From the NCBI GenBank assembly GCA_020201045.1, contig JAIVHP010000264.1, positions 1 through 33,089 of the forward strand: DNA of 33,089 nt, given 5' to 3'. The first letter of the stretch is position 1. Each line of letters begins with the position of its first letter. Origin of the DNA: Flavobacteriales bacterium (GTDB lineage Bacteria; Bacteroidota; Bacteroidia; Flavobacteriales_D; Cryomorphaceae). The notes under the pieces are model-generated. The model did no database searches and was not told the origin of the DNA. It was given only the letters and a program-made list of their open reading frames with translations. This document shows, one piece after another, positions 8,473 through 19,080 of the stretch. A program made the translations under genes and the position numbers.

Positions 8473-8847
8473 CTAAGAGCGATTGATTTTAGCTGCAATC
8501 TCCGCCAGTTCTTCCTGCGACAAATCCAATTTCGGTTTAGAGAAATTCATATCCGAAACGGAATTGATAGGAATGAGATGGACATGGGCATGAGGCACTT
8601 CCAGTCCGATAATCGAAATTCCAATTCGCTCACAATCCATCGCCGCTTCAATTTTCGCGGCTACCGATTTACTAAAAATCAGTATTTCGGAGAGTAGTTC
8701 TTCTGGCAGGTCAAAAATATAATCTACTTCGCGTTTGGGAATCACAAGCGTATGCCCTTTAGCCAGCGGATTGATATCCAAAAAGGCCAGAAAGCGATCG
8801 TTCTCGGCGATTTTATGCGATGGAATTTCTCCGGAAATAATTTTTGA
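8473..8847 (-). pseudogene. HIT family protein lacking its native start codon (5' truncated at a fusion junction)
   Basis: Frame reads SKIISGEIPSHKIAENDRFLAFLDINPLAKGHTLVIPKRE...VPHAHVHLIPI (HIT motif); in-frame TGA upstream and no ATG/GTG/TTG before the conserved N-terminus. Confidence 0.8.
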
Positions 8848-9095
8848 ATGTCCATTTGAGACTCATCGACGATTCTGGCATTTGCCAAAACGTCTTCCAT
8901 TTTTGCGATACGCGCTTCCAAATGTCCCTGCGCTTCTTTGGCGGCGTCGTATTCGGCATTTTCAGATAAGTCACCTTTATCGCGTGCTTCTGCAATTTGT
9001 TGTGAGATAGATGGTCTCTCTACCGTCTTTAATTGATGCAGCTCGTCTTTGATCTTTTGCAGACCTTCTTTGGTGTAGTAGTTTATTTGCGACAT
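8742..9095 (-). pseudogene. greA: Transcription elongation factor GreA, N-terminal coiled coil only; C-terminal domain missing, fused out of frame to HIT gene
   Basis: MSQINYYTKEGLQKIKDELHQLKTVERPSISQQIAEARDKGDLSENAEYDAAKEAQG...ANARIVDESQMD is GreA residues 1-82; residues after this are the HIT gene read in the wrong frame. Confidence 0.85.
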
Positions 9096-9131
9096 CTTAA
9101 TTCATTTTTTACCAGGTGGGTTAAGCCAAAA

Positions 9132-9164
9132 AATGAGAAAACCCGTTTTCAGGGTTTTCTCATT
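9132..9164 (-). terminator. Strong hairpin terminator at the end of the PorV-like operon
   Basis: AATGAGAAAACCC GTTTTCA GGGTTTTCTCATT, 13-bp perfect stem between the PorV-like stop and greA start. Confidence 0.8.
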
Positions 9165-9193
9165 CTAATACAAAGTTAATACTATTTAAATAT

Positions 9194-10261
9194 TTACTGC
9201 GATTTTCCGAGGTGTATTCGGGCTCCAATACAGTGTGTTCCGTTAAAAGGATTGCTCGCTCTCCACGCATAGTCAAGCGATACTCTGGAGTTGTTTTCAC
9301 CAAACTTCAGTTGAACTCCCGCTCCTGCAGCAATTCCGGTGTAAACGTACCTTCTATCTGCATCATTGGTAATTCCCTCTTCGTAGTGGTAACCCCCACG
9401 GAGGTAAAACATCTCTTTAAAATTGTAAACCGCACCCACGAGAAAATTATCACGTGTAAAGGAATTTGCGATGAAAGTACCGTGGGCAGTAAGATTGTGG
9501 TTTTCGGCGAGAATGAAATCATAGCTCGCAGCAATGGATATTAGTGATGGCAACTCGTAATTTTCACTTCTCAATTCAGAAGTAAAAGAATAAGCTGCAT
9601 CAGGAGCGGCTCCTTCATAGCTCAAACCGTCGCCTTCGAACGACATCGTGGGTCCAACATTTTTCAATGAAATACCAAATTTAATCTGGTCACGGTCACC
9701 GGTCACATATTTAATCCCAGCATCAAATGCAACACCATTGGAATTTAGGTCTGCTACTGATTCAGAGATCACCTTCACAGTTATACCACCGTAAATGCTG
9801 TTTGAAAAGGCTTTTGCATAAGACAATCCGATATTCAGTACACTCATATTGAAAAAAGTCCCATCACCATCTGGCGTTTCTGTTGTTGTTCTCCGTATAT
9901 CGCCGAAACCAAATGATGCAACGGTAAATCCAATCGCACTAGTTTCGCCAACGCGTTGAGCTAAAGCCACGGAGTTAACACTAACATCAGAACCCGAAAG
10001 GTAATCTGAATAAGTAAAACCAATTTCTGTTTGCTCAACGAAGGCCATACCGGCTACGTTTTGAAACATCGACTCAACAGGCGTAGCATCGGCCATATTG
10101 GCTCCCGCAACACCGTTGCTTCGCACCCAGGGGTTTACCAGTAGCTGCATACCTCCTGCAGAACCGGCCCTGTCTGGGTTTCCGGCGTAAGCCGGAAACA
10201 CCAGGCAAATTGAGAATGCGGCAATGAAGGTTTTCACAAAAAATTTCAAACAGTTATTCAT
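9194..10261 (-). CDS. PorV/PorQ family outer-membrane beta-barrel protein
   Basis: 355 aa with signal peptide; ANMADATPVESMFQNVAGMAFVEQTEIGFTYSDYLSGSDVSVNSVALAQ and FKEMFYLRGGYHYEEG, as in PorV/UPF0164-type barrels. Confidence 0.8.
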   Translation of the reverse strand: MNNCLKFFVKTFIAAFSICLVFPAYAGNPDRAGSAGGMQLLVNPWVRSNGVAGANMADATPVESMFQNVAGMAFVEQTEIGFTYSDYLSGSDVSVNSVALAQRVGETSAIGFTVASFGFGDIRRTTTETPDGDGTFFNMSVLNIGLSYAKAFSNSIYGGITVKVISESVADLNSNGVAFDAGIKYVTGDRDQIKFGISLKNVGPTMSFEGDGLSYEGAAPDAAYSFTSELRSENYELPSLISIAASYDFILAENHNLTAHGTFIANSFTRDNFLVGAVYNFKEMFYLRGGYHYEEGITNDADRRYVYTGIAAGAGVQLKFGENNSRVSLDYAWRASNPFNGTHCIGARIHLGKSQ

Positions 10262-10291
10262 AGGTCAACAGTTGTAATCTCTGATTGTAGT

Positions 10292-13200
10292 TTAGAAGTT
10301 TCTCAAGTCGGTTGGGCGTGTAGCCATAAAGAATTTTAGCACTCGCTCTCCCAATCTTGGAGATTGCACATGAATTAAGTATACTCCACCCGCAATCGGA
10401 ATGAATGCTTCATTTTGTAAGTCCCATTCCAGGAAGGTATTGGGGTTATCCTTTTCGAGGATTCTCACCAATGTTCCGTTAATGGTAAAGATTTGAATTT
10501 TACACTCCGGAGGCAAATTCACAAACTTCACACGGTTATCAACTCTGCTTTGCTCGTACGACGAGTAAGCGTAGTATGGATTGGGCACAATATCGATCAA
10601 ATCAAGCGCATTCTCTCCTTCCTCCTGAACATTCGTGAAAGTTTCAATTCCTACAGTTGAAAATTCATACGAAGGATACCAGAAGTTTTCGCTCAAATCG
10701 TAGTTCTCATCAACTGGTGTAAATGGGAATGAAGCATCTCCTAATTCTTCCTTGGTAGTTGCATAAGGTTCATACGATCTGGCTACATGGGCGAAGATTT
10801 TCGCTTCGCCGGGAACCAATCCGTCTTCCGGAGAGAGATATTGCAAACCAGCTTCTCTGGCTAACTGAGAAAAGACAGGAATACCTATCCAATCCAGAGC
10901 TCTATAGGTTCTTCTAACTTCTACAGAGTTTCCGCGATTCAAACGTTCGTAGATAAACTGCCCGCCGTCGTACATTGGTACATCGCGGTCGTTATCTGTA
11001 ATCCGACGTTCGTTTCTAAAGGTGTATACGTAATGCTCACCGCCAAATAAAACTTGGTCACCCAGGTTTGTAGTAACTCTGGGGCTTGGATTCCAAAGCA
11101 TATCCTTTCCATTATCACCGGCCAATTGTGAGTTTTCGCCAAAAGCCATATTCTGTCGCTCGCCAGTTTCGGGAGTAATTGCATAACCGGGGAACCATGA
11201 CATACCAAACGAAAGCCCAAGCAGATCGCCTTCAGTGGAAGTATCGTCAAAGTAATCGGGATACTCGAGCGCCAGAAGTTCAAGCATGTCATCGATTTCC
11301 GATGCGCTCATATCATCGATATCCTCCTGGATTATTACCTGGTTTCCATTGAAAGTAGCTTCGGCCACATTCGCTCCCGGTTCAAGTTGGTGTCTTCCAT
11401 TTTTATCTACGGAGAGTGCACCCCTTAAATCCATTTTCTCAGCTCGCAGTTGAGCAAATAAAGGATTCGACTGCATTTCATAAACCGGAACGCGACTCCA
11501 TTTAGACTTATCTTGCGTGATGAACAAGTCAACAGAATTCAATGGCGAAAGATCTCTACTTCCATTGATCAATTGCGCTCTCGCGGCATTGCTCAATGGA
11601 GCGGGGCCACAGTCGTAAGCGGCAACCAATCGCGCTGGAGCAAAAGTTCCACCAACGATATCCTCAAACAGCTGGTCGTCGTCTACATTCGGGTAGTCGT
11701 TAAAAACGAAAGGGTGAATTGAACCATCGGCCTGCTGATAGCACGGACCATCGGCCTCTTCGGCATCTGGTTCGTCTTCTTGTATAATCCCAGACCTAAT
11801 CCAATTGAAGAAGTTATTTCCTTCTTGATCTGGCACACCTTCGAGCCATTCTTCTCCTGTAAACTCAATGCCAGACGAAAGGGGTTGTGGATAGAATGCC
11901 AACAGATTCGCATTGTTATTTACGATTTCATTTTCGTATTGACCTATCTCTACGGAAATTCCATACTCAGGTACGATTTGTTCATTGGCCACTTCGATGG
12001 TATTTTCACTAAAGATTGTGTCTTCTGGATTATCTACATAAATCATAAACCATCTAGCGTCATTGAAATCCCCTTCATAACCACCATCATCGGCTAAATC
12101 ATTTGTAAACTTCAGCTCAAAGTCAGCCGATACAACATTCAAAGGATCGATGACCTTCACATTTATCGGACCTCTTCCCGGTAAGTAAGAGACCCTATCT
12201 ACTTTGTAAGGTGATGATTCCATAACGGCATTAACAGACTCATCGTCCATGAGTAGATCATTCCCGCCGTTTCCAGCGCCTTCTACTCTAGTAATTGGCA
12301 CTCCGTCTCCGTAATTCGTTTGAGAAACCGTTCCGAACTGCTCGGGTGAAGGTTTGTGAGGAATTACCGTGATGGGCGTAATTTCACCTGTTGCACTAGA
12401 TCTACCGCGTAGGTAAGGAAATGCCTGACCAGTCAATACATTCGGATCTGGATTATAGGGTTCATATTCGTTGTAACCGTAAGCAATTGCCACGAAGTAG
12501 TACTTCTTGAAATTTATTAATCGCGTATCTCCCGAAGCAAACTGATCTTCTGTTACCTGAAAAGAATGCGTAATTCCTCGGTTTGCACCATTTACCTTTT
12601 CTGTAGGCACGGGTAAACCGATGGACTCATCGAACTCGTAATTAACGATCTGTGCGATCGGATCTCCATTTTCTTCAAAATCGCGAATATCACACTGAAA
12701 TACCAGACGTGACCGCTCAGGATCTTGTATATCACCAACGGAAACTTCAGCATCTCTCAATTGATAGATTTGATAACCTTGAAACCGATAGAATCGATCG
12801 TTTGGAGTACCGTCCAAATCAGTGGGGGGAATAGTAGGATCCAATTCCACATATTGCTCACCTTGATTATTACTCAAAGGACTGGTATTTCTGATGTAAA
12901 GAATTGCTTCCTTATCTAATTCCTGAGCTGTCAAATCTGGCGCATCAGGACCATCGAGAAGCCTAAAACAATTCTCAAATAGAGCTTGTGCCTTGTCATC
13001 TGCCTGGAACAAGGCTCCAACAGACGCAAAAGGACCACCTGTTTGCGCCCTGGCATAAACAGCACCGACCGTTATGTTATTAAATTCTCCTGGATCTAAG
13101 GTGAAAGGTCCAGCAGATTGCATGAAACGACGGTCTGCTGGTGGATTACCTTCATTCTCTTCAGTCCAGCCACCGGCTATGCCATAATTAGGGTCAATTC

Positions 13201-14680
13201 CACCCGTTCCCCAATTTAAAGGATCCGAATCACCGGGAAACATAAAGTCTGCGTCGAGGGCCGATTGATCGGTAGGGTTGTAACCCGTTCCGCCAAAAGT
13301 CATTTCTACACCGTTTCTCCAAATACCGCGCATGAAATTATAGTATTCCACCGCCACCTGAGGGTCTAAAGTCGGCGCTGGACCATCTGCGTTATTGTGG
13401 TATAGGAACCTTCTCATTCCAAAGCGCTCATTGTCGATAATCGAATCAACACCACCAGGCTCTAACGAATCGGCGAGATTAAAGTAGCCAAGACCATTAA
13501 GTGCTTCTCCTTCGCCTATTCCATAAGCGTTATTAATGCCATCGGGGTCCTGGTAAGGTCCTTCGAAGAAATCAATTCCAAGTGCTGGTGGCTGAGAGCC
13601 ATAACCCGGACCACTCGTACTTCCTTCATCGTTATCGTCACCATTATATGTGTATCCCAAACCTCTGCCAACGTCACATCCAACAAAGTCGTCACTAAAA
13701 TTACCCAAGTCGGTATCAATCCATTGGGCGAAATAAGTATCTTCTAATGTCAATGAACCTCTGTTTATCAACACATAATTGCAAAAGGTCATGTTGTTAA
13801 TCTCGTCGTTTGTAGTAAAACCAAACATCTGAGCCTGAATTTCCATACCGATCGGTTCACCCTGAGATTCGGTGTGAACATTCCCTTTATCGTTAAACAC
13901 CCAATACATGCTAAAGTCACCAAATAAAGGAACAGGGTCTGTTACCAAACGCGTTCTACAATCTATTTCCTGATCGAGGTCATAAAGTGGATAATCTCCC
14001 AATGTGGGTTCATAGATATCCGGAGTGGTTAATATTTCACCAGATTCTGGATCTCTGAGATCGGCAAATGGAGCAATGTTGAAGCTTTGTCCAAGTGATA
14101 CATCGCCTTCTGCAGGCCATTCCAAAATTTCTGTCGGGATATCGTATCCGTTTTCAAAAAGTGGGTCGGTAGTGGGATCTATCCCCTGAGCCAGAAGGGT
14201 AAAATAATACCTGTGCGTTTCAACCATTTGGCGAGACATATTAAAAAATCTGTCCCACAACGTACACGTTTCGGGCTGAATTGAAGCTGCACCATCGGTA
14301 GTAAGCGGACCTGGCCAATAATCATTACCATTTTGCCGAAACCGCACTGCTGCAAGCTTTAAGTTACCTGCCGGATCTTCTCCTCCCATCCAGAGTGCAC
14401 CCGCAAAGATTGCGTGGTTTCCACCACCGGCGGGAACTTCGTAATAAGGCAACCCGTTACCACGGTCGTACCAGGTATTCCCGCCGGTTTCGGCTGCAGT
14501 ACGCACGTTATTGACGAAAAACTCTTGCAAAGACTGAGCGGGAGAACAATCTACCGCTTTGGCTTTAACCTGAGATTTAGAATCCTTGGATTTGGGTCCA
14601 ACGTATTCTCTAGCATTCAGATGGTTTATGCTGGCTGTGAGCAGAGCGAGGCATAATACTGTGTTCGTGAATACTCTCAT
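10292..14680 (-). CDS. Large secreted protein (1462 aa) with putative T9SS-type C-terminal domain
   Basis: Signal peptide MRVFTNTVLCLALLTASINHLNA; C-terminal PNPYYAYSSYE...CKIQIFTINGTLVRILEKDNPNTFLEWDLQNEAFIPIAGGVYLIHVQSPRLGERVLKFF resembles T9SS type A sorting-domain architecture. Confidence 0.75.
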   Translation of the reverse strand: MRVFTNTVLCLALLTASINHLNAREYVGPKSKDSKSQVKAKAVDCSPAQSLQEFFVNNVRTAAETGGNTWYDRGNGLPYYEVPAGGGNHAIFAGALWMGGEDPAGNLKLAAVRFRQNGNDYWPGPLTTDGAASIQPETCTLWDRFFNMSRQMVETHRYYFTLLAQGIDPTTDPLFENGYDIPTEILEWPAEGDVSLGQSFNIAPFADLRDPESGEILTTPDIYEPTLGDYPLYDLDQEIDCRTRLVTDPVPLFGDFSMYWVFNDKGNVHTESQGEPIGMEIQAQMFGFTTNDEINNMTFCNYVLINRGSLTLEDTYFAQWIDTDLGNFSDDFVGCDVGRGLGYTYNGDDNDEGSTSGPGYGSQPPALGIDFFEGPYQDPDGINNAYGIGEGEALNGLGYFNLADSLEPGGVDSIIDNERFGMRRFLYHNNADGPAPTLDPQVAVEYYNFMRGIWRNGVEMTFGGTGYNPTDQSALDADFMFPGDSDPLNWGTGGIDPNYGIAGGWTEENEGNPPADRRFMQSAGPFTLDPGEFNNITVGAVYARAQTGGPFASVGALFQADDKAQALFENCFRLLDGPDAPDLTAQELDKEAILYIRNTSPLSNNQGEQYVELDPTIPPTDLDGTPNDRFYRFQGYQIYQLRDAEVSVGDIQDPERSRLVFQCDIRDFEENGDPIAQIVNYEFDESIGLPVPTEKVNGANRGITHSFQVTEDQFASGDTRLINFKKYYFVAIAYGYNEYEPYNPDPNVLTGQAFPYLRGRSSATGEITPITVIPHKPSPEQFGTVSQTNYGDGVPITRVEGAGNGGNDLLMDDESVNAVMESSPYKVDRVSYLPGRGPINVKVIDPLNVVSADFELKFTNDLADDGGYEGDFNDARWFMIYVDNPEDTIFSENTIEVANEQIVPEYGISVEIGQYENEIVNNNANLLAFYPQPLSSGIEFTGEEWLEGVPDQEGNNFFNWIRSGIIQEDEPDAEEADGPCYQQADGSIHPFVFNDYPNVDDDQLFEDIVGGTFAPARLVAAYDCGPAPLSNAARAQLINGSRDLSPLNSVDLFITQDKSKWSRVPVYEMQSNPLFAQLRAEKMDLRGALSVDKNGRHQLEPGANVAEATFNGNQVIIQEDIDDMSASEIDDMLELLALEYPDYFDDTSTEGDLLGLSFGMSWFPGYAITPETGERQNMAFGENSQLAGDNGKDMLWNPSPRVTTNLGDQVLFGGEHYVYTFRNERRITDNDRDVPMYDGGQFIYERLNRGNSVEVRRTYRALDWIGIPVFSQLAREAGLQYLSPEDGLVPGEAKIFAHVARSYEPYATTKEELGDASFPFTPVDENYDLSENFWYPSYEFSTVGIETFTNVQEEGENALDLIDIVPNPYYAYSSYEQSRVDNRVKFVNLPPECKIQIFTINGTLVRILEKDNPNTFLEWDLQNEAFIPIAGGVYLIHVQSPRLGERVLKFFMATRPTDLRNF

Positions 14681-14709
14681 AATTTATCTTATTTCTCTCT
14701 AAATATTTA

Positions 14710-17700
14710 TTAAAAGTCTAATCTGATACCAAGCTGTATAGTTCTTGGAGCAGAGTAATTAAATGGATTGGCAGCTTTCAGCGCATACATCTGTCTGAAT
14801 GCTGTTTCGTCTAATTGTGTTCTAATGTTTGGTTGAAACTGTGGTGCCGCCAGATATCCATCGTCGTCTGGGTTACCGGTAAATCGGTACACACCTAAAA
14901 TGTTTTGCGTATCAAAAATATTATTAATCAAAAGGTAGGCATTTAACATCGCAGACTTCTTTTTATCGCCTTTACCCAGCTCAAGTGCCCAGGATTTATC
15001 AATCTGAACGTTCACTCTAAACTGCCATGGAACGCGTGACCCGTTCACGGTACCTTCAAGTTGTGGCGATCCCGATGGATTGATAAATGCTGCACCCGTT
15101 GCCAATCTCTGTCGTGAGTAAGGTGTACCTGACCCCAAGTTACCAACGACATTTAGACCGGCATTGGCAAAGATCTGGCTTCCGCCAATAACTGGACCAT
15201 TGTAGTCCTTACCCGAGCCGTAACGGTAATCGAATGTTGTGATAAATACATGGCGTTGGTCTCTATCTGTTGGGAAAATAACCCGGAGGTTTGGCTCGCC
15301 AGAGTTAACCAGATTCAAGGCCGAACCAGAACTCGAACCGGTTGCAGAAGCAAACTGTAAAGTATAAGCTGCTCTTAAACTCACATTACCTGTTCTTCTC
15401 AAGTCGTACGTTAACGTCATACCCTTGGTCGTTCCAAAGTCGAAGTTGTCATAAGTTGTAAAAGTAACGGGATAGGCACCGAGTAATCTTCTCGCTTGAA
15501 TCTCATCCCTCGTTTCGCGGTAAAATGCAGAAATCTTTAAAGATGAACTCCTGGAAAGTACTTGCTGGAATCCAAGTTCGTAGTCGATCGTAGTCGTCGG
15601 CAACAGATTTGGATTGGCTATAGGTGTATTTCCCAGGTTCTGAACAAACAAGTAATCTATTGGATTGAATACATTCTGCCCCGTTGGTCTTTGCGTCAAA
15701 ACATCGTAGTGGGCGAAGAACACCGCTTCATCAGAAATAGGGAATGAAAATGCTATACGCGGCATAAAATTCCACTGTGGTTCGTAATCTCTAAAGGCAT
15801 CTGCCGTTAAGTTCTCTCCTACTTCATCTGGATCGACCAATAGAGGTGCAATTCCAGATGGGGTGAAGATGCCTTCTCTGGGATCTGGAATCTCAACACC
15901 CTGGGAGTTAAACCAGGTATTTCCATCTCGATAACCATTTATTGCCGTTGGGTTTTGAAGATCGTTTACATAAACCACCCAATCGTCTTGAACAACATTA
16001 GGCTGATTTTGTAGGTAGGCATTCTCATCGCCTGTAAGATTTCTAGAGTCACCAACGGTAACAGCTTCACCTATAACAAATTGATCTTTAAGCGTAGGCT
16101 GGTTGGCATCAAAGCGGTCTACACGTAACCCTACGTTGAAGATAATGTCGTCAAAAGCAAACTTATCCATCACGTAAAACGATGCGTAAATGGGATCGAA
16201 GGCACCAACTGGTCTTGTTCTGTTGCCGGCTTCGTCGGTGGCATTAAAGAAATCTTCAATGGTAGGAGAACCGCCGCTCAAGCGATTTCCCAAATAATCG
16301 AAACCGTAGTAATTAACCAGGGCGTTGTTTCCCTGACGGAGCAACTCATCTGCACTAAACATATCCAATTCGAAGAGATCCGGGTCGAGGGCATCTACAT
16401 AGATGTAATCATCACCGTTAGGATTTAAACCCAGCGTAGATCGAAGGTTTCTGTCAAATGTTGACTGACTTCCGATGTCGATTAATCTGTCGTAGGTTAA
16501 ATACGTTTGATTATTGATCTCTTGTGCTACGGGACTTGATTCGAAATCCAACTCTTCTATATGTGAATTCGTCAACTGGCGTGCCTGATTCCAAAGACCT
16601 ACAGGCGATCGCACCGTAAAAGAACGCTGTGTAAACTGTTCGAATTCAAAACCCAATGTTATCGCGTGATCTCCCACATCGGCATTACCCGAAGCCGTAA
16701 TTCGGAACTGGTCCTGATCGAAAACCTGGAATGAATTGAAGGGTGCTCCCAGTGGCCTGTACAAGTTGTACACATCATCTGGTAATCGCCCGTTTCGTAA
16801 TCCGTTTGCTCCGTCAATATCATTTCCATCTCGAACCGTAAAACCTAATTGATCGTAGAATTCATATAGTCCCGTGGTGTAAGAAGCTAAACCGGGATTT
16901 GTCTCGCTGGGAGTAAACGTTGTTTCCAGCGTTCTGAATCCAGAGTGCACAAAAGCGTCCAGGCTATCGCCATCGAAAGAATAGTTTGGCGTTTCTATGG
17001 TTTCAAACTTTCCCACATAGCCATAATTAAACAATCGGTCTTCGTGCAGCGGGTCTTGTTGCTTAAAGCGTCTCTGACTATAGTCGATCATAACGCTGTA
17101 AAAGGCATTTTTAATTAACCCATCAGCTTCTTGATCATCATCTGCAAAACGTTGCGTAAACCGACCGAAAGCTCTCCAGGTTTGATCTGTAGATCGTCCG
17201 TTACTTCCAGAATTAAACAAGCTATTTTGGTAGCTGTAAATATTATCCTGCACCCAGTCAAAAGTACCGCCAAAAGAAAGATCGATATTTGGACCTGTAG
17301 CGACATCTAGTTTACCAGTTAGCGACACACCTTGCTGCCTGTCGTTCTGGCGCGCTGGCACTTCTTCCCAATCATCTGATCTTAGAAACTCAGCATTCGG
17401 ATTACCTTGGACATTTGGTGTAACTGTTGTTGAATTCTGCGGAACACCATTCTCGTCAATATATTGATCTCCCGAAGGATCTACTTCTACTCCACTAAAC
17501 TCAAAATCAATTGGATTTGCCAAAAGTTGTTGGCGCGTAGACTCCTTGATACGGTATTGTCTAATTGAAGGTCTGTTGTCAAGCGAGTTCCTGTAGTTTC
17601 CCGAAACAAAAAATCCCAGAATCGGATCTGTTTTATTTCCCTCAGCATCCTTTTTCCAGAGCAGTGGACCTGATATTACAGCCTCAATCTGTGTTTGGGC

Positions 17701-18462
17701 GTAACGGTCTAAGCCGATACCGTCACCATCTTCGTTTGCAAAACCAGAAGTGATGATATCCAGACTTCCAAAATACTCACTGCTCGCTCCACGTGTAGTA
17801 ATAGATATAATACCACCTGTCGCATCACCGTAGTTAGCGGGAATACCACCGGTTAATACCTGAACTTCCTCGATGGCCGCTTTGGGAAGGTTATTTGATC
17901 CCCTTACTTTAATACCATCTATATAGTAGAATGTGTTTCCTTCACGGGCACCGCGGAGTGAAACCCCCGCTCCGGTTTCTTGCACCCCACCAACTGTGGC
18001 GGCGATGGATGTGGCAGACCGACCTGGCATCTTGTTGATATCTTCTCTTGTAACAGTTCCTCCCGTGGATCCCCCATCTTTATCGATAAGCGGAACAGTG
18101 TAGTCCACAACTTCAAACTCATCAAGTTTTACTCCACTGTCTAATTCAACATCCAGGAAAGTTATTTTGGAGTTATTAATCTCTACACCGTTAATGCGTT
18201 TAGCGTTGTAACCCACAAATGATATAGATATATTGTATTCACCGGGTGGAATTGGTTTAATGGTATATTCTCCATCAAAATTGGTTGAACCACCGGCAAC
18301 TTGTCTGTCACCTTTTAATAACACCAGGTTAACAAATGGTAAAGGTTCGCCCGTTTCGGAGTCTGTCAAAGTTCCCTTTAGCGTACCAGATCCTACCTGC
18401 GCATACACGGAAAATGAAGAAAATAGGAAAACCAATCCCAGGAAGTAAAGATTTCGCAACAT
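14710..18462 (-). CDS. TonB-dependent receptor with carboxypeptidase-regulatory-like N-terminal domain
   Basis: 1250 aa; GTLKGTLTDSETGEPLPFVNLVLLKGDRQVAGGSTNFDGEYTIKPIPPGEYNISISFVGY, plug domain VSLRGAREGNTFYYIDGIKVRGSNNLPKAAIEEVQVLTGGIPANYGDATGGIISITTRG. Confidence 0.9.
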   Translation of the reverse strand: MLRNLYFLGLVFLFSSFSVYAQVGSGTLKGTLTDSETGEPLPFVNLVLLKGDRQVAGGSTNFDGEYTIKPIPPGEYNISISFVGYNAKRINGVEINNSKITFLDVELDSGVKLDEFEVVDYTVPLIDKDGGSTGGTVTREDINKMPGRSATSIAATVGGVQETGAGVSLRGAREGNTFYYIDGIKVRGSNNLPKAAIEEVQVLTGGIPANYGDATGGIISITTRGASSEYFGSLDIITSGFANEDGDGIGLDRYAQTQIEAVISGPLLWKKDAEGNKTDPILGFFVSGNYRNSLDNRPSIRQYRIKESTRQQLLANPIDFEFSGVEVDPSGDQYIDENGVPQNSTTVTPNVQGNPNAEFLRSDDWEEVPARQNDRQQGVSLTGKLDVATGPNIDLSFGGTFDWVQDNIYSYQNSLFNSGSNGRSTDQTWRAFGRFTQRFADDDQEADGLIKNAFYSVMIDYSQRRFKQQDPLHEDRLFNYGYVGKFETIETPNYSFDGDSLDAFVHSGFRTLETTFTPSETNPGLASYTTGLYEFYDQLGFTVRDGNDIDGANGLRNGRLPDDVYNLYRPLGAPFNSFQVFDQDQFRITASGNADVGDHAITLGFEFEQFTQRSFTVRSPVGLWNQARQLTNSHIEELDFESSPVAQEINNQTYLTYDRLIDIGSQSTFDRNLRSTLGLNPNGDDYIYVDALDPDLFELDMFSADELLRQGNNALVNYYGFDYLGNRLSGGSPTIEDFFNATDEAGNRTRPVGAFDPIYASFYVMDKFAFDDIIFNVGLRVDRFDANQPTLKDQFVIGEAVTVGDSRNLTGDENAYLQNQPNVVQDDWVVYVNDLQNPTAINGYRDGNTWFNSQGVEIPDPREGIFTPSGIAPLLVDPDEVGENLTADAFRDYEPQWNFMPRIAFSFPISDEAVFFAHYDVLTQRPTGQNVFNPIDYLFVQNLGNTPIANPNLLPTTTIDYELGFQQVLSRSSSLKISAFYRETRDEIQARRLLGAYPVTFTTYDNFDFGTTKGMTLTYDLRRTGNVSLRAAYTLQFASATGSSSGSALNLVNSGEPNLRVIFPTDRDQRHVFITTFDYRYGSGKDYNGPVIGGSQIFANAGLNVVGNLGSGTPYSRQRLATGAAFINPSGSPQLEGTVNGSRVPWQFRVNVQIDKSWALELGKGDKKKSAMLNAYLLINNIFDTQNILGVYRFTGNPDDDGYLAAPQFQPNIRTQLDETAFRQMYALKAANPFNYSAPRTIQLGIRLDF

Positions 18463-18738: not shown

Positions 18739-19056
18739 TTAGCGCTTCGGTTTTTTCTTAAAGAGCCGCTGAAAGAAGTTTTCTTTGTGTTTATTCTTCT
18801 TTAACCGTTTCATTTTTTTACGGTTCTTCTTCATGCGTTTCCGCGTTTCTTTGGTCTGTAAGTCGCGGTGTCTCTCCCGCCCTTCTTCAAGTTGCTTGGT
18901 ATTGGCTTCCGAGCGTTCTTCCTGAAGCTCCATAAATTCTTTCTTCTGCTTTTTTACAGACTTCTGCTTTTCTCTTTTTTGACCAAACGCATTTGGACCT
19001 GAGATTAGGAAGGCGATGAAGATTAGAATAATGAATGTAAATTTGCGTTTCAGCAT
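18739..19056 (-). CDS. Small secreted/membrane-anchored highly basic Lys/Arg/Glu-rich protein, unknown function
   Basis: Signal-like MLKRKFTFIILIFIAFLISGPNAFGQ followed by KREKQKSVKKQKKEF...KETRKRMKKNRKKMKRLKKNKHKENFFQRLFKKKPKR. Confidence 0.6.
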   Translation of the reverse strand: MLKRKFTFIILIFIAFLISGPNAFGQKREKQKSVKKQKKEFMELQEERSEANTKQLEEGRERHRDLQTKETRKRMKKNRKKMKRLKKNKHKENFFQRLFKKKPKR

Positions 19057-19080
19057 ATCAGGGTACAAGAAATTTTAAGC

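Follow-up and report, generated by a model that had tools for sequence, protein, structure and literature searches.

The stretch of DNA analysed here (the window, 33,089 nucleotides) is an entire contig (C488) of a draft genome comprising 494 contigs. Its minus strand carries three open reading frames, at 14710–18462 (1250 amino acids), 10292–14680 (1462 amino acids) and 9194–10261 (355 amino acids), which encode a TonB-dependent receptor (TBDR), an exported surface protein and an outer-membrane barrel of the PorV/PorQ family, respectively. The intergenic gaps are 29 and 30 nt, in agreement with the preliminary description, in which three co-directional genes about 30 bp apart were reported to be closed by a terminator at 9132–9164. 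The latter was also recovered by folding: the region 9125–9170 of the minus strand forms a strong single stem (−19.8 kcal/mol, z = −5.95), and the intrinsic terminator at 9132–9166(−) closes the operon. This hairpin is not among the calls of a generic terminator scanner, probably because some of the T-run is base-paired to the stem. Directly upstream of the receptor, at 18742–19068(−), lies the gene for a small secreted lysine-rich protein of about 105 residues, without a Pfam family, which is found immediately 5′ of the receptor in about ten of the fetched loci of the order and is a possible fourth member of the module.

The surroundings of the operon do not point to a substrate. Around the core copy of the trio only greA, a HIT gene, ruvC, ahcY and a phosphopantetheinyl transferase gene are found, and a riboswitch scan of the window and seven loci, made in search of a substrate clue, returned none at the gathering threshold. 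At 8473–9095(−), the window has an out-of-frame fusion of greA with the HIT gene; relatives have both as intact, separate genes. About 250 nt, corresponding to the C-terminal part of greA and the start of the HIT gene, are absent, and the genome contains only one other match to the GreA_GreB C-terminal domain, a partial one; a real deletion and an assembly error cannot be told apart. At the other end of the contig, the trigger factor ORF (270–1787) opens with a GTG that is overlapped by a tRNA at 1749–1830(−); the true start is placed further inside the ORF because the family match begins at residue 68.

The receptor (14710–18462) contains a signal peptide, a CarboxypepD_reg domain (residues 27–107, Pfam E 8e-14), a plug (residues 136–218, E 3e-9) and a barrel, for which no Pfam model was matched. 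It belongs to a conserved family of proteins of about 1250 residues, in the alignment of which the classical plug motifs are present, and is assigned to the TBDRs by its plug, TonB dependence itself being inferred. No SusC/RagA model of NCBIfam is among its matches, so the receptor does not qualify as the SusC/RagA-type component of a SusCD pair. The lipoprotein component is missing as well: the operon contains no match to the SusD family, and the single weak match in the whole genome is located on another contig.

The 1462-residue protein (10292–14680) begins with a Sec-type signal peptide, judged by eye and with no lipobox at its end, which is followed by a conserved multi-domain body; no part of the protein matches Pfam. 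Two AlphaFold models were available (m7021365b136b, pLDDT 87.5; me3fdb44671fe, pLDDT 90.0), the second of which covers residues 740–1462. No recognisable binding fold or enzyme was identified in the body, for which the best Foldseek results were local matches only. Cysteines at residues 45 and 139, each found in 61 of 69 relatives, suggest a putative disulfide in the N-terminal domain. This domain (approximately residues 46–545) recurs in proteins of 550–600 residues (L058–L072 and G000:C74), which in some cases form tandem arrays. An ordinary type A tail is present on the proteins of L059 and C74, and MoxR/DUF58 genes lie alongside in L059.

The C-terminal domain (CTD) of the protein (approximately residues 1345–1462; 10292–10648(−)) had been described as similar to those of cargo of the type IX secretion system (T9SS). 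On its own, the 1462-residue protein reaches only 12 bits against TIGR04183 (Por_Secre_tail, cut-off 23) and therefore does not qualify as type A cargo; the T9SS-type C-terminus is nevertheless real, and clear both at the family level and in the structure model. Relatives scanned singly match the PorZ model in 54 of 59 cases, the type A tail in 42 of 59 (E ≤0.01) and the PorU model in 23 of 59, so that the claim withstands the profile check that could have refuted it. A profile search of the PDB with the family returned only two weak matches, PorZ (E 0.015) and PorU (E 0.62). The model of residues 740–1462 ends in a β-sandwich domain, for which the best Foldseek match is PorZ (5m11, E 6e-6), with PorU (6za2) and, from the T9SS translocon structure, the chain of the substrate NucA (8glk_D, TM 0.70 to target) as further matches. 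This Ig-like CTD and the signal peptide place the protein among T9SS cargo in the wide sense. The genome encodes about 140 ordinary T9SS tails, and the CTD profile recovers from it, at E ≤1e-6, only the 1462-residue protein itself, PorU and one 950-residue protein. The protein is not PorZ, against whose equivalog it scores 17.8 bits (cut-off 260), the true PorZ being located on contig C233. Its identification as PorU, considered with porU–porV neighbours in mind, was also rejected, since the true porU–porV pair lies on contig C242. PorU and PorZ sit on PorV and PorQ, and both CTDs are reported in the literature to be uncleaved; by analogy, the inference is that the 1462-residue protein belongs with retained, not released, cargo.

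The 355-residue barrel (9194–10261) is a member of the PorV/PorQ family (NF033709, E 2e-41, 142.6 bits against a cut-off of 90) and also matches the Pfam PorV model above its cut-off. It stays below the cut-offs of the PorV, PorQ and PorV2 equivalogs (58.7/250, 73.1/220 and 50.8/325 bits, respectively), and the genome, among whose T9SS parts are SprA, PorU–PorV, PorQ, PorV2 and PorZ, carries its own PorV, PorQ and PorV2 besides the trio barrel. A tree built from 85 proteins of the PorV family places the trio barrels in one clade with support of 100/100, separate from the entries identified by NCBIfam as PorV, PorQ and PorV2, which bears out the earlier proposal of a dedicated PorV paralogue; the barrels of the amplified cassettes described below form another group, with weaker support (90/75). 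In two loci (L186:1309–7532 and L187:3244–9583), PorV2 (NF052325) lies directly before a protein of 1683–1753 residues with a CTD of the same type, without a TonB receptor; in the window's own genome PorV2 adjoins a CTD protein of 1683 residues. Because PorV2, too, adjoins a CTD protein, barrels of the PorV family tend to pair with one CTD partner.

Among the loci fetched, 50 (two of them repeats of another locus) preserve the gene order of receptor, big protein and PorV-like barrel, with median gaps of about 30 and 42 nt. They range from the taxonomic order to which the window belongs to other classes of the phylum; the linkage on which the preliminary description depended does hold in other genomes, and this conservation excludes chance as the origin of the arrangement. 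The big protein is present in 58 of 60 relatives, among them every one of the 51 with a completeness of at least 90% and low contamination. Across the phylum it was detected in 191 of 396 sampled genomes, in some by the CTD only. The nearest named relative is Cryomorpha ignava, and the named trio loci include those of C. ignava and of MAGs labelled Bacteroidales, Chitinophagaceae and Cytophagaceae. The three genes are co-inherited phylum-wide, the distance matrices of their products correlating with r = 0.93–0.96 (permutation maximum 0.22). In the class Bacteroidia the trio is usually followed by greA and the gene of the HIT protein; since the neighbours differ in other classes, the conserved unit is the trio itself. 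SprA was found in 304 of the 396 genomes, and no big protein was found in the six genera negative for SprA (SprA_N; g36, g68, g72, g82, g93, g98), so that the protein is restricted to SprA-positive genomes.

Some loci show other arrangements. In L041, L079, L081 and L087 a second full-length big protein follows the PorV-like gene, and one barrel may serve two surface proteins there. Full-length big proteins also occur alone, with neither receptor nor PorV-like gene (L085:6631–14075, L086:7492–15129 and L088), an unidentified ORF of 1061–1078 residues lying upstream in L085 and L086. Outside the window's class, GWxTD-domain proteins come right after the trio in L133, L140, L141 and L142.

Paralogous cassettes extend the picture. 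In seven genomes, 50 loci match a CTD profile with E values of about 5e-12 or lower, and the counts of orphans rest on profile searches of these same seven. Directly before a PorV-family gene lie 39 of the 50 (0.11 expected under random placement), and 38, with a receptor of the trio's family upstream as well, belong to complete TBDR–CTD–PorV cassettes; in genome G410 all 12 CTD loci are complete cassettes, the amplification being found in classes other than that of the window. Gene models on the fetched DNA confirm, in order, a receptor of 917–1175 residues, a CTD protein of 615–1303 and a barrel whose open frames span 333–548, and in one locus (L147) receptor and barrel occur without a CTD protein. 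The middle proteins of the amplified cassettes are variable and mostly without Pfam domains. SusD is scarce in the seven genomes, with at most about six genes and zero in two, and is located away from the cassettes. Cassettes in G089 and G410 have as neighbours a chondroitinase B (PL6-type) and a heparinase/alginate lyase (L206), a heparinase and β-helix proteins (L200), a GHL10 hydrolase (L203, L204), a PfkB kinase, a RhaT symporter and an FGE-sulfatase-type protein (L157, L197), or an amidase_2 (L143); the neighbours of other cassettes give no such clue. Several paralogous cassettes are located in polysaccharide loci without a SusD match.

The cassette also occurs in Rhodothermus marinus. 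On a plasmid of strain DSM 4252, a TonB receptor, a 1132-residue protein with this CTD and a PorV/PorQ protein are followed by an amidase and a serine hydrolase. The alginate locus of R. marinus contains tonB, hypA (with a T9SS sorting domain) and hypB (PorV/PorQ) together with characterised lyases (PMC9530828), the same three-gene cassette, as annotated by its authors, although its middle protein, of 726 residues by the gene length of 2,181 nt, is not an orthologue of that of the window. The section of that paper devoted to the locus places the middle gene among hypothetical genes and leaves the trio uninterpreted; SusD is not mentioned in the paper. The strongest evidence for an uptake module in the position of SusCD comes from this locus.

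The trio is one copy of a widespread cassette that is uncharacterised in the open-access literature, an earlier description not being excluded. We interpret it, with a probability of roughly 0.6, as an uptake module similar to SusCD, in which the T9SS exports the surface subunit and a dedicated PorV paralogue holds it; the complex, the transport and the window's substrate are inferred. Of the alternatives raised earlier, we favour the one in which the secreted protein takes the place of SusD beside the receptor, since paralogous cassettes occupy polysaccharide-utilisation loci without SusD; there are no data on a complex or on a lid function. After export by Sec, the C-terminal Ig-like domain would direct the 1462-residue protein through the SprA translocon and across the outer membrane, where its own PorV-family barrel would collect it. 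Because the CTD would stay uncleaved and attached to this barrel, in the manner of PorZ with PorQ and of PorU with PorV, the protein would be retained at the surface. There it would lie over or beside the receptor and bind the substrate, taking the part that the lipoprotein SusD plays in SusCD. The captured solute would then be imported by the receptor with TonB energy. That the big protein is retained on its cognate barrel, that a ternary complex forms, that the protein acts as a lid and that the window copy serves uptake are all inferred, as is its substrate. The model combines the tested anatomy with precedents, namely the PorU:PorV and PorQ:PorZ complexes and type B cargo with PorP/SprF-like barrels. 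Uptake in particular is carried over from the paralogues, because neither the window copy nor its orthologues within the class have a catabolic transporter or hydrolase as neighbour; greA, HIT, ruvC and ahcY are found there instead.

As in SusCD, a receptor and a surface-exposed partner are co-encoded and repeated in polysaccharide-utilisation loci, but the receptor is not SusC, the partner is T9SS-tailed and neither SusD nor a lipoprotein, and a PorV-family barrel is added. PorZ:PorQ and PorU:PorV of the T9SS attachment complex also combine a CTD protein with a cognate PorV-family barrel, and their CTDs are those most similar to the trio's, whereas the body of the trio's CTD protein is related to neither a sortase nor a propeller, the operon includes a TonB receptor and the PorV-like protein forms a separate clade. 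In SprB/SprF and other type B systems with PorP/SprF-like shuttles the cargo gene is likewise followed by its own dedicated shuttle barrel, but the trio CTD is type A-like and its barrel belongs to the PorV/PorQ, not the PorP/SprF, family. The BAM accessory subunits BamG and BamH pair a FadL-type barrel with a surface protein, but BamH is a lipoprotein, BamG binds BamA and there is no T9SS tail (PMC12611786). In the family scans no homology between them and the trio was found, and this identity was rejected, BamG being a FadL barrel and BamH a lipoprotein.

The three products might instead be co-regulated but independent parts, a surface adhesin or sorting factor with its PorV-type anchor beside an unrelated receptor, without any ternary complex. 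Cargo with a dedicated barrel and no receptor is already known and is represented in the same genome by PorV2 with its 1683-residue CTD protein, and lone copies of the big protein exist; we nevertheless consider this explanation unlikely, as almost all intact cassettes, whatever their class, include the receptor and its divergence is correlated with that of its partners. The main mechanistic rival is a secretory role of an Oar-like receptor, which would aid export, folding or release of the big protein, with the PorV-like barrel as shuttle and no import. Such a role appears improbable, given that the T9SS already provides translocon and energy, that other T9SS cargo (about 140 tails in the genome) is not all receptor-linked, that the genome's PorU–PorV and PorV2–CTD pairs have no receptor, and that the paralogues sit with lyases, a sugar kinase and a symporter; it draws support from the strict co-inheritance of the three genes and from Oar, whose N-terminal domains are arranged like those of the receptor and which Myxococcus needs in order to secrete the protease PopC. 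A second attachment complex, in which the big protein and the PorV-like barrel act on other T9SS cargo like PorZ–PorQ and the receptor supplies or flips a ligand, is very unlikely. In its favour are the closeness of the CTD to those of PorZ and PorU and a core copy that most of the order's genomes have inherited vertically; against it, the genome already has PorU, PorV, PorQ and PorZ, and amplified cassettes with differing middle proteins in sugar loci misfit housekeeping sorting.

The SusCD-like uptake module is itself weakened by several points: there are no interaction, localisation or transport data, the body of the big protein has no recognisable binding fold (Foldseek TM ≤0.23), some genomes have extra or lone big proteins without a receptor, and the CTD of the window's protein alone is below the type A cut-off.

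A broader proposal, which we advance only tentatively and at somewhat less than even odds, is that the T9SS is a general assembly route for surface subunits of TBDRs and that each PorV paralogue permanently anchors one uncleaved CTD protein. Across much of the phylum, TBDR–CTD–PorV modules would then replace SusCD, also in polysaccharide loci of Rhodothermota, and one orthologous core module would serve a substrate that is unknown but widely needed. Many natural cargo–barrel pairs are available to test whether cognate PorV-like barrels protect the CTD from cleavage, an idea already published (PMC10202324). If true, the uptake-module reading would join T9SS protein secretion and TonB-dependent nutrient uptake, so far treated separately, would explain the many PorV paralogues and few SusD genes in several examined members of the phylum, and would give a transporter to polysaccharide loci seemingly without a SusCD pair.
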